Below are positions 463 through 12,297 of a DNA stretch of 64,000 nt, in pieces; position 1 is the stretch's first letter, and each line of letters opens with the position of its first letter. Source of the DNA: Brasenia schreberi (Eukaryota; Streptophyta; Magnoliopsida; Nymphaeales; Cabombaceae); assembly GCA_036023115.1 (NCBI GenBank), contig JAYKKT010000079.1, forward strand, positions 17,075,501-17,139,500, given 5' to 3'. The notes under the pieces were generated by a model. It was not told the DNA's origin. It worked only from the letters and a program-made list of their open reading frames with translations, and ran no database searches. The position numbers were made by a program, and so were the translations under genes.

Positions 463-617
463 TGTTGAAGAATATGAGTTTTAGAGTCAGTTTTAGTAAG
501 GTTGATATCTTAGGACAATAAATTTGATGTTTTAGGTATTATTGTAATTGTTCGAAGTCATAAGGGCATTTTGGTAATTTTCTGTACTAGGGGGGGGTAT
601 TTTGGTCATTTTATCTT
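463..617 (+). repeat. Truncated 5' LTR of the gene-fragment element
   Basis: This stretch aligns with the first 155 or so bases of the LTR at 11957-12297, with about ten scattered differences and a small insertion in a G run. The match ends near 617. The 3' half of the LTR and any primer-binding site are missing, and sequence of another origin follows. A deletion after insertion, or an abnormal reverse-transcription product, would explain this. Confidence 0.8.
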
Positions 618-638
618 TTTTCTCGGAGGCCGCGACTC

Positions 639-1733
639 GTGAGCGTTGAGAGCAAACGTAGGCTGCGAACAAACACCATGCCCTTTGAAGCATACGCGTC
701 AGTGAGGCGCCTTTTTCCCTCGGCTTTCTGCCGCTTGCCTTGCTTTCCGAAGAGTTGTTGTTCAGGTGTCCCTCATTGCGGTTGCGGGATGCCGCTCTAC
801 GATTGTATGCTTCTTATGAAGCCCCACGTGGAGAAGGCAACGCTCATTGATTTGGTGGCGAGAGTGGGGAATCATGTTTGCAAAAGAAATGGTGTTGTTA
901 CGGACATAAAATCATTTGGGAAGATTCATTTGGGGTATGGGATCAAGAAACTCGATGGCAGGTACTACCAGGGCCAGCTTATGCAGATGACGATGATGGC
1001 CACTCATAACTTAAACAAGGAGCTCCATTACCTCAACAAAGAAAGGTGCTTGCTGCGCTGGCTTCTCGTCAAACACAGGGATACTAAATACGGCTCAGAC
1101 TTTAGTGAGGAGGGCCTGAGGAATGATCTGTGCAAGTCCCATCGTAGCATCTTAAATGATGAAGAGGATGGTGATGATGACAATGATCAATATGAGGTGG
1201 AAAAGGCTGATAATCCTTCAATGAGAGCAGCGAGTAGTGGTTGTCAACATACGAAAAAAGAAGAAGGTTTCTTCATTCGTTATGGTGCAAAAGAAGGGTT
1301 CGGTGGTGGCGGAGGTGTTCGTTCCCTTGCAGGCCATCCCTTTTTGCTGATTGCTTCGACCTTAATCGCATATAATCCTTCACTTGTTCGCGTGAGAACA
1401 ACAAAAGACGAAGACATTGAAGAGAATGAGAAGGTTGCACCTGGTGAATTTGAGGTAGCAAAACTCGTCGATATCTGTTATGGGGATCCTGCGGAATGTG
1501 GGAAACGTGGATTGAAGTTCAAGGTGCGGTGGAAAGGATATGGACTGAGTGATGACACTTGGGAACCAATTGAAGGTTTAAGCAATTGTCAAGAACGTAT
1601 CAAAGAGTTTGTGGCAAATCGTTATAGAAAGAATATCTTGCCCCTTCCTGGCTATGTTGACGTCATCTGCGGAGGACTTTTTATTGCTAATACGCGAGTG
1701 GGAGAAGCTCTGCAATTAGAATCATTTGGTTGA
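639..1733 (+). pseudogene. Chimeric ORF: bS6-like ribosomal protein fused to CMT chromodomain
   Basis: An open frame of 364 codons joins pieces of two gene families. From the Met at 789 the protein reads like plant organellar ribosomal protein S6 (MPLYDCMLLMKPHV, GVVTDIKSFG, LGYGIKKLDGRYYQGQ, RWLLVKHRDTKYG). It is followed by an acidic stretch. Near 1435-1680 it reads like a chromomethylase chromodomain (EFEVAKLVDICYGDP, FKVRWKGYGLSDDTWEPIEG, NILPLPGYVDVICGG). It breaks just before the PPCQG methyltransferase motif. About 50 residues upstream of 789 look like translated bS6 leader, and the middle (about 1215-1400) is unassigned. Each fragment is read through without visible introns, which suggests an mRNA origin. 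The ORF lies inside an LTR element, so I treat it as a captured chimera, not a working gene. Confidence 0.75.
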
Positions 1734-2077
1734 GACTAAAAACTGTGAAACAAAAGGTATTTTTTTCTGATGAGAGTGATAGGACGAAACTTTTAGAAGC
1801 GCGACTGCGTGGCCTCAACAGGGGAGGCAGAAACTGCCTGCTGGATCGTCTGTCATCAGAGGTTGGCTGGTGTCAATATGATACTATCAAGGAGTTGGAG
1901 GCAAAGAGAAAGGCAAGATCTCAAGTGATTTACGAGAGGCGAAAGCAATTGGCCAAGTTGAGAGAGAAGGCAGAGAAATCTAAGCAGCGAAGGAAGAAAG
2001 ATCCACTAGCTGTTATGACCATGGTTATCAGACAGTCAAAGTCTTTCAGTATCTTGCAGAACACGGCTTGGAAATGA
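1730..2077 (+). pseudogene. RPL13A (uL13) C-terminal fragment in the same element
   Basis: Overlapping the previous stop codon is a second frame of 115 codons. Its middle, about 1836-1980, matches the C-terminal helix of cytosolic ribosomal protein uL13/RPL13A: CLLDRLSSEVGW, YDTIKELEAKRKARSQVIYERRKQLAKLREKAEK. The N-terminal three quarters of uL13 and its last residues are absent. Flanking residues on both sides are of unknown origin. It is the third cellular gene fragment in a row on the same strand, which argues for serial capture by the enclosing element. It cannot make a functional ribosomal protein. Confidence 0.75.
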
Positions 2078-2128
2078 TGGGACAATTGTTGAAGGTGTAT
2101 TGAGTCACCAACTTAAGCAGTTTTGTCA

Positions 2129-10900: not shown

Positions 10901-11232
10901 AAGACCATATACATAATGAGGTTATTAGAAACAAATTAGGAGTGGCACCAATAGGGGATAAAATGAGAGAACATCGTTTAAGATGGTTTGGACATATAAA
11001 AAGAAGATCAAAAGAAGAACCTGTAAGAAGGTTAGAAAAACTAAATTTGGAAAGTATTAAAAGAGGTAGAGGACGACCACAAAAGTGTTGGAAAGAAACA
11101 ATAAAGAATGATCTAGCTTATTGGGAGTTAACTGCTAACATGGCACACGATAGAGATCTGTGGAAATAAAGAATCCATGTAGCCGACCCCGTCTAGTATG
11201 GGAAAAGGCTTAGTTGTTGTTGTTGTTGTTGT
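7954..11232 (+). mobile_element. Full-length RTE-clade LINE copy 1
   Basis: This 3.28-kb element lies between exact 18-bp direct repeats at 7936-7953 and 11233-11250. It starts in a GC-rich 5' region, encodes an endonuclease and a reverse transcriptase in one frame interrupted by mutations, and ends in the conserved tail (CCGACCCCGTCTAGTATGGG) followed by TTG repeats. The lack of poly(A), the microsatellite tail and the order EN-RT are RTE features. The exact duplication suggests a fairly recent insertion. Nonsense and frameshift mutations make it non-autonomous now. Confidence 0.93.
8067..11195 (+). pseudogene. RTE LINE polyprotein: AP-like endonuclease and reverse transcriptase, broken
   Basis: The endonuclease part (about 8340-9040) shows IRIGSWNIGTLSGK, LQETKW, GGDLNGHVG and QIDYF. 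The RT part (about 9750-10560) shows KSGKSVGPDNIP, NYRGIKLMSHTMK, DLEKAYDRVP, GLHQGSTLSPYLF and the catalytic FADD near 10423. The C-terminal part follows (RWFGHI...RGRGRPQKCW). Damage seen: a stop at about 9042, a frameshift in the A run near 9070, a frameshift near 9640, TAG for Trp near 10198, TGA near 10516 and a late TAA near 11167. The catalytic motifs remain. Confidence 0.9.
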
Positions 11233-11250
11233 ATGAAGTGTTTGAAGAAA

Positions 11251-11956
11251 TGTTCAAGAGGGATGCAAATTCAGAAAAAGATTGCAGAAGATATCAAGTA
11301 GTACGTGATGATTATCTTTATGAAAAAACAGTTGAATGCACATAGAAGGAAAGATAGAATGCAGAAAAGCAGTCTTTTTTAGTCTTTTTCACTACATATG
11401 CATGACAAATCAAATCATAGAAGAGGCCAGAGGAATTTGTTGATATGGAATGTGGCAGTATCACCAAAAAGCATTAAAGTTAAAATCTTGAGTTGCTGAA
11501 GGAAACAGCTAGGAGGGCTAGAAAAGCGGCTGCAGTCACCATGTGAAGGGCCGCAGACCGACTAGTATAAGCAGATGTCTGTATTCTGTTATTTGAGTGG
11601 TAGAGAGAGGGCACCCAACCAACACACCGTCTGGAGCTACCATGTGAAGGGACACAGGAAAAGCAATGTGAAGTGTGTATGGTGGAGTAGTACCTCCTAT
11701 CACAAAAGATCAACTTTCTCAAGAGTAGAAAAAACATGACTTTTTTGAAGTGTAGCTGCCGAATCACTTTATGAAGAAGAAAGAAAGAGGGAGCAACCGA
11801 CACCCATAGAAGGGTCGTGTGCTACCCATGCATTCTTGATTATTTAAGTTGTTTTACAGAAGCCTCAAAGAGATCGCTCGTGCACGTGTGGTGAAGAAAG
11901 AACCAGTTCTTTTGCAAGTTTGGAGTTCGAAGTATCTCACTCCCAACTTAAGGGGG
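11251..11956 (+). other. Remaining interior of the gene-fragment element
   Basis: After the last tandem-repeat unit (11251 to about 11272) come about 680 bases without recognisable coding content, ending in a purine tract just before the LTR at 11957. Two phrases recur inside it: ACCATGTGAAGGG near 11538 and near 11640. Its origin is not recognised. Confidence 0.5.
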
Positions 11957-12297
11957 TGTTGAAGAATATGAGTTTTAGAGTAAGTTTTAGTAAGGTTGAT
12001 GTCTTAGGACAGTAAATTTGATGTTTTAGGTATTATTGGAATTGTCCGAAGTCATAAGGGTATTTTGGTAAATTTTTATACTAGGAGTATTTTGGTCATT
12101 TTACGTTTTACAGCTCCTTATATAAGGGTTGATAGGTTGTATTAGGGTTTAAGTTTCTGTGATTAAGAAAGAGAGAGAAAGAGGGGGGCGGCCTCCATTG
12201 AAGGTCCGCCCCCTCCTCCGATCTCCACTTTTCCTCTTCATATTGTGTTATTGTTTTCTATTATCGATTTTTCGCTGCGCAACAACATTTTTCAACA
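11957..12297 (+). repeat. 3' LTR of the gene-fragment element
   Basis: This 341-bp LTR begins TGTTGAA and ends with the inverted copy TTCAACA. A TATA-like CTTATATAAGG near 12115 could serve as the promoter of the R region. AGGTC follows at 12298-12302. Confidence 0.85.

Follow-up and report, generated by a model that had tools for sequence, protein, structure and literature searches.

An LTR retrotransposon family of Brasenia schreberi with varied host-gene cargo, including a spliced three-gene chimera

Introduction

Several plant long terminal repeat (LTR) retrotransposons carry pieces of host genes, and a 2026 review names, in the text available, Bs1, the terminal-repeat retrotransposons in miniature (TRIMs) and BARE-2 as plant cases of capture or template switching (PMC13317346). 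Here we describe an LTR element at positions 463–12297 of a 64,000-nucleotide stretch of Brasenia schreberi DNA (assembly GCA_036023115.1, contig JAYKKT010000079.1, positions 17,075,501–17,139,500; the window is this whole stretch), which carries pieces of the genes for bS6m, a plant chromomethylase (CMT) and RPL13A, together with the family to which it belongs. This family is very probably non-autonomous, with an interior that is built anew when reverse transcriptase switches templates onto host RNAs. An earlier note on the same DNA, made from the letters alone, had pointed to Bs1 of maize as a parallel, and aptly so, as both have exon-only host gene pieces between LTRs; Bs1 has pieces of three host genes and no working pol. 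In the available description Bs1 comes with one gene set (PMC13317346), whereas the Brasenia family has many sets and a circular permutation.

The GmaRetroS15 TRIMs of soybean are likewise short non-autonomous LTR elements with exon pieces only, from up to three genes, and gene-bearing TRIMs share the 5-bp duplications and the amplification after capture; the accessible part of the report gives lengths of 1,172–1,449 bp and 30 elements in 7 of 289 subfamilies (PMC4717578). The Brasenia elements differ in being 2–3 kb long, in having a fixed 0.72-kb core and repeats, and in that most sampled copies have differing cargo. Host gene fragments also lie between the LTRs of maize, rice and sorghum retrotransposons (PMC2774510, PMC3726574), and the maize set comprises 425 elements with gene fragments and at least 189 captures, none with more than one gene according to the text available (PMC2774510), whereas several Brasenia elements have two or more. 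For complex insertions in the Triticeae the same template switching was proposed and the same test of intact flanking duplications applied, although the templates joined in the cases described are two retrotransposon RNAs (PMC1950507). Pack-MULEs and gene-bearing Helitrons resemble the Brasenia family in having members each with different gene pieces (PMC13317346), but they are DNA transposons with introns in their cargo, whereas the Brasenia family has LTRs, a primer site and spliced cargo. Transduced genes are, in the portion of the literature consulted, usually in sense orientation and in one or a few copies (PMC7264820). The open-licence literature yielded neither a family with interchangeable multi-gene cargo nor a case from Nymphaea, and within that literature such cargo in one family appears new relative to Bs1 and the gene-bearing TRIMs.

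Structure of the window element

The element interrupts a Copia RNase H reading frame and is flanked by a duplicated AGGTC (458–462 and 12298–12302); when the flanks are rejoined with a single AGGTC they read ...SIDDRRSTSEYLTMIGGTIVS and continue the frame. The 5-bp duplication thus sits exactly where the Copia frame is split, as the earlier note had claimed, which argues against a chance match or a larger segmental duplication. At the right end is a 341-bp LTR with TG...CA termini (11957–12297, plus strand), and the polypurine tract reported before it is present as AAGGGGG at 11950–11956, immediately 5′ of the TG at 11957. The LTR claimed for the left end is not a whole one. Positions 463–619 (plus strand) align to the first 153 bases of the right LTR (141 of 157 columns, BLAST E 9e-57) and stop short of the TATA box, leaving a 153-bp U3 remnant without R, U5 and primer site; the remaining ~190 LTR bases have no other BLAST match in the window, and no primer-binding site is present in 463–2204. 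Measured against L011, a second copy of the chimera, the window copy has a gap of about 265 bp that takes out the primer site, the leader and all of the left LTR beyond the remnant; TTTT borders this gap on either side. The window copy lost its primer site after or during insertion and is no longer complete.

Two later insertions lie within the element, each with its own duplication as had been noted: a Copia element at 2205–7868 on the minus strand (AAGAA duplication, LTR pair Kimura two-parameter distance (K2P) 0.038) and a long interspersed nuclear element (LINE) with a TTG-rich tail at 7954–11232 on the plus strand, flanked by duplicated ATGAAGTGTTTGAAGAAA, the last base of which depends on how the left copy is delimited. 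The two LTRs of the family element itself have 11 differences in 148 positions (K2P 0.079), more than the nested Copia, in agreement with the order that the nesting demands.

Spliced pieces of three host genes

All assigned gene pieces are in sense orientation, on the plus strand. The first, at 619–1208, is from bS6m, with 5′ UTR (untranslated region) at 619–788 and coding sequence at 789–1208 that stops about 8 codons short of the donor's stop (Pfam 4e-12; PDB bS6m 1e-51). It is followed by segment X (1209–1404), by two CMT pieces, A (1405–1677, from the chromo domain to VDVICGG) and B (1669–1779, SAEDFLLLIREWEKLCN...), and by two pieces of RPL13A, one from the 5′ UTR (1792–1833) and one from the C-terminal coding region (1833–1981), the jump between them falling at CTGC. 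Chromo domain matches are to Pfam (2.1e-12) and to maize DNMT chains in PDB (9e-24); the uL13/RPL13A piece matches in PDB (4.8e-21) and has no Pfam match. A 380-codon frame (591–1733) joins bS6m to the chromo domain, and a second frame (1691–2077) holds the RPL13A end. Segment Y (1981–2128) precedes the family's 44-bp direct repeats (2129–2204, continuing at 7874–7953 beyond the Copia insertion) and its 0.72-kb 3′ core (11233–11956), which ends in the AAGGGGG tract. The three genes named in the earlier note are therefore present, and no gag or pol has a Pfam match among the scanned frames of the window element itself; its description of the interior as captured host fragments fits the gene pieces, but part of that interior consists of the family's own repeats and core.

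Donor loci for all three genes are found in the same 1.055-Gb genome. The two bS6 donors (C80:22672544-22681667 and C66:21191865-21204697) are interrupted at window position 972 by introns of about 8 and 12 kb, and that in C66 has an 82-bp intron in the 5′ UTR as well; the CMT donor (C77) has three, at window positions 1525, 1582 and 1650, and the RPL13A donor (L051, on C75) has one of 3.3 kb at 1892. All are absent from the element, which thus lacks six donor introns (two of bS6, three of CMT and one of RPL13A). Identity per exon to the C80, C77 and C75 donors is 91–100%, and 1890–1981 is identical to the RPL13A donor exon. The closest protein relatives of the bS6 and RPL13A pieces are from Nymphaea and Victoria, with 80% identity to Nymphaea colorata over 137 residues for bS6 and five of the six best matches in Nymphaeaceae for RPL13A. 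Judged from sequence context, the pieces of bS6 and RPL13A start close to where the mRNAs presumably begin.

The earlier note had proposed searching for further copies that match the window element in both LTR and gene set, and one is found in L011 (C46:641000-646000), where the gene pieces of the window occur in identical order with 94% identity over 1,583 bp. L011 has a left LTR without its first 29 bases, followed by the tRNA-Met primer site TGGTATCAGAGC, and further on the 44-bp repeats, core and right LTR. At least one round of copying as an LTR element has thus taken place since the bS6m-CMT-RPL13A chimera formed. Two further copies are partly similar, L055 having X, CMT and the RPL13A 5′ UTR without bS6, and L056 having RPL13A and Y after a different first part; the two possibly represent stages of the window type or recombinants derived from it.

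Segments X, Y and the core, as well as the 44-bp repeats, have no Pfam match, and a PDB search with Y gave nothing usable; to the eye the repeats look somewhat PPR-like. Segment X is common to L011 and L055, and Y occurs in L011, L054 and L056. Two similar loci, L052 (C90:671500-679500) and L053 (C92:29892500-29900500), match X at 1282–1361 (81%) and Y at 1981–2079 (93–96%), and have short matches on the opposite strand as well.

A family with fixed ends and variable cargo

Searching the genome with the LTR gave 40 scored matches from 3,764 first-look candidates, and with the core 40 scored copies from 1,918, in both cases a lower bound. Twenty-eight copies were sampled, 16 found through LTR or repeat matches, and thus selected by closeness to those of the window, and 12 that are every third core match, for which sequence was taken only up to the core. 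Duplicate loci (L003, L004, L006, L007, L017, L019, L025 and L033) were not counted, and the cargo set omits L042 and L060, whose repeats are preceded by Copia or LINE sequence, and L055, with the same cargo as L011. L056 was trimmed to its first 560 bases, the first ~290 bases of L072 were missed, and the cargo of L037, L040, L041, L045 and L064, in which a left LTR was not seen, may contain flanking sequence.

Across the 28 elements a left LTR is present in 23, the primer site (≤2 mismatches) in 21 and the 44-bp repeats in 27. All 16 of the first set have a right LTR, and 13 have at least 300 bp of the core, with less in L012, L043 and L058. Elements with both ends measure 2.33–3.05 kb, larger than TRIMs, which range from hundreds of bp to about 1.5 kb. 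Target duplications are seen for the window copy, for L009 and L010, which have both LTRs, and for two solo LTRs, L013 (5020–5361, GCTTC) and L015 (4985–5326, TTTAC); LTR pairs of seven elements have K2P values of 0.051 to 0.096.

The 28 cargos (560–2,041 bases as cut) fall into 21 clusters when linked by matches of at least 150 bp, and in many copies the cargo is bordered on one side by the primer site of the element and on the other by its repeats. Cargo is held in common by L009 and L063 (EMP70), L067 and L071 (dynamin), L058 and L059 (155 bp), L011 and L054 (segment Y, 151 bp), L038 and L043, and L037 and L041, the last two pairs being connected to each other by about 160–190 bp.

Cargo frames of at least 52 amino acids were scanned with Pfam at 1e-3, giving 266 frames (76 sense and 83 antisense in the first set, 52 and 55 in the second), none with a match to a retrotransposon gag or pol family. 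Sense frames of the first set match EMP70, ELK (KNOX), cytochrome c, protein kinase, HMA, Chromo, DnaJ, bS6, RRM, Ost-alpha transporter, HipN and L22, and those of the second set PPR (some of which may be the 44-bp repeats), EMP70, dynamin, amino-acid transporter, acyltransferase, neprosin, response regulator, nucleotide-sugar transferase, Snf7 and C2H2 zinc finger. The antisense frames have UCH, LRRNT_2 and a 5′-3′ exonuclease, to which is added a dynamin piece that is inverted in L067 relative to L071. With rows for the same family merged and counted once (two kinase, two cytochrome, three PPR, two dynamin and two UCH, and EMP70, found in both batches), there are 21 families in sense versus 3 in antisense (p 2.8e-4), or 21 versus 4 (p 9e-4). 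Individual cases include kinase in L010, EMP70 in L009, amino-acid transporter in L065, acyltransferase in L066, nucleotide-sugar transferase in L068, response regulator in L070 and Snf7 in L072; L071 has a single 323-codon open frame over the GTPase and central region of dynamin. L054 combines HMA with eIF2B-epsilon (a PDB search with a suspected PP2C piece gave nothing usable) and L058 DnaJ with RRM, and thus several elements carry two or more genes.

Origin of the cargo

We suggest that the family keeps its ends fixed (LTR, tRNA-Met primer site, 44-bp repeats, 3′ core and purine tract) while the middle varies, with the enzymes for movement supplied by another element. Within the particle, reverse transcriptase would quit the element RNA, copy spliced host RNAs, hop between these at short repeats or RNA ends, and then rejoin the element RNA at its 5′ leader. 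The resulting chimera would integrate with a 5-bp duplication and be open to further copying, and the window copy, with bS6m, CMT and RPL13A, would be one such product. The spliced and mostly sense pieces, the joins at short repeats, the starts near mRNA ends, and the intact LTR ends with 5-bp duplications all fit template switching.

Several observations weigh on the other side. An autonomous partner, sought in the flanks of the copies, was not found; L015 was considered and rejected, because the LTR there is a solo one, flanked by a TTTAC duplication of its own and lying beside Copia-like sequence. (The window element likewise adjoins Copia-like sequence.) The 380-codon frame is not conserved, ending in L011 within segment X, and intron-bearing donors are mapped for the window's cargo only. 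The antisense UCH, LRRNT_2 and exonuclease pieces, and the 378-bp segment inverted between the otherwise same dynamin cargos of L067 and L071, are not given by simple minus-strand switching, and a further step is needed, for example recombination of cDNAs with one another or a template switch while the plus strand is being made.

In the CMT pieces there is a frame shift after VDVICGG, and what follows is the CMT part that precedes the chromo domain in the donor, a part matched by 48 of 57 CMT relatives. The spliced donor has the 7-nt repeat GGAGGAC at bases 18 and 390, and it is here that piece A (donor bases 125–396) and piece B (bases 16–125) join and overlap. Together they correspond to a 372-nt circle read round once, its opening at base 125 and its ends overlapping by 1 nt. 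The same joint is present in all three holders (the window copy, L011 and L055), indicating that the permutation arose once and was copied afterwards. A circular template, either a circRNA or a small circular cDNA, is a possible source that we entertain with some doubt. The donor bases that run from one GGAGGAC to the other each occur once, with a single opening and the 1-nt overlap, and randomly linearised ends would abut within 1 nt in about 3/372 of cases, a figure computed after the pattern had been noticed; L040 provides a possible parallel in a 166-bp KNOX (ELK domain) piece present in two exact tandem units (1995–2326), head-to-tail without spacer and 96% identical. However, the closing point lies inside exons rather than at their ends, which does not correspond to ordinary back-splicing, and two jumps on a cleaved linear mRNA, joining its two ends, would yield the same CMT product.

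LINEs are a very unlikely source of the gene pieces. They are abundant here, and one lies inside the window element, but the pieces meet at microhomologies and mostly in one orientation, and on reading through window positions 1–3000 neither a poly-A tail nor a target duplication was seen around them, although no dedicated search was made.

We regard it as highly improbable that a Helitron, a Pack-MULE or gap repair brought genomic gene fragments into an LTR element. Helitrons and Pack-MULEs typically carry mosaics of several genes, and antisense pieces are present here as well. Introns or genomic flanks in the pieces would, as the earlier note recognised, point to such capture at the DNA level, but introns of the donor loci in this genome, including those of 3.3 kb in RPL13A and 8–12 kb in bS6, are missing from the pieces, and the cargo in many copies is bounded by the element's primer site and repeats. 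For the window's cargo this explanation is already largely refuted.

The joined bS6-CMT frame remains open over 380 codons in an element with 7% LTR difference, and its simulated neutral survival ranged from 0.0005 to 0.59 across the frame lengths, divergences and indel rates tried. Between the window copy and L011 bS6 has pS 0.0495 and pN 0.0476 (4 and 16 changes), compared with 0.108 and 0.017 between the two donor genes, a pattern indicating that captured bS6 evolves neutrally and showing no constraint on the copies within the elements. Of 54 strongly conserved sites, 3 are changed in the bS6 copy (control mean 0.7, maximum 5, n=120), and a search with the fusion protein gave 71 matches among 5.8 billion proteins, none convincingly covering both parts. 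That the frame is a working fusion gene under selection is scarcely credible given this substitution pattern and the broken frame in L011, and we reject it.

Exon shuffling by LTR elements has so far been known from scattered cases. Template switching onto spliced RNAs would make the differing mosaics in most sampled copies a natural series of its products from one genome, and as such a series allows bulk reading of junctions, donors and ages, the entry of host RNAs into retrotransposon particles becomes testable by sequence alone. More tentatively, this could be a gene-shuffling family with a fixed frame and a middle repeatedly rewritten from spliced host RNAs, taking in several genes per round, circular or cleaved RNAs included, and yielding hundreds of new exon combinations in one genome. 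We also note that CMT is the plant's own DNA-methylation enzyme and, speculatively, that CMT cargo could feed small RNAs against its donor.

Other features of the window

Further copies of the LINE found in the element occur elsewhere in the window, on both strands and 74–94% identical, at 15360–17699, 24041–25578, 36058–37605 and 60876–61554, among others. An exact match to the tRNA-Met primer site on the minus strand at 44864–44875 probably belongs to another LTR element.

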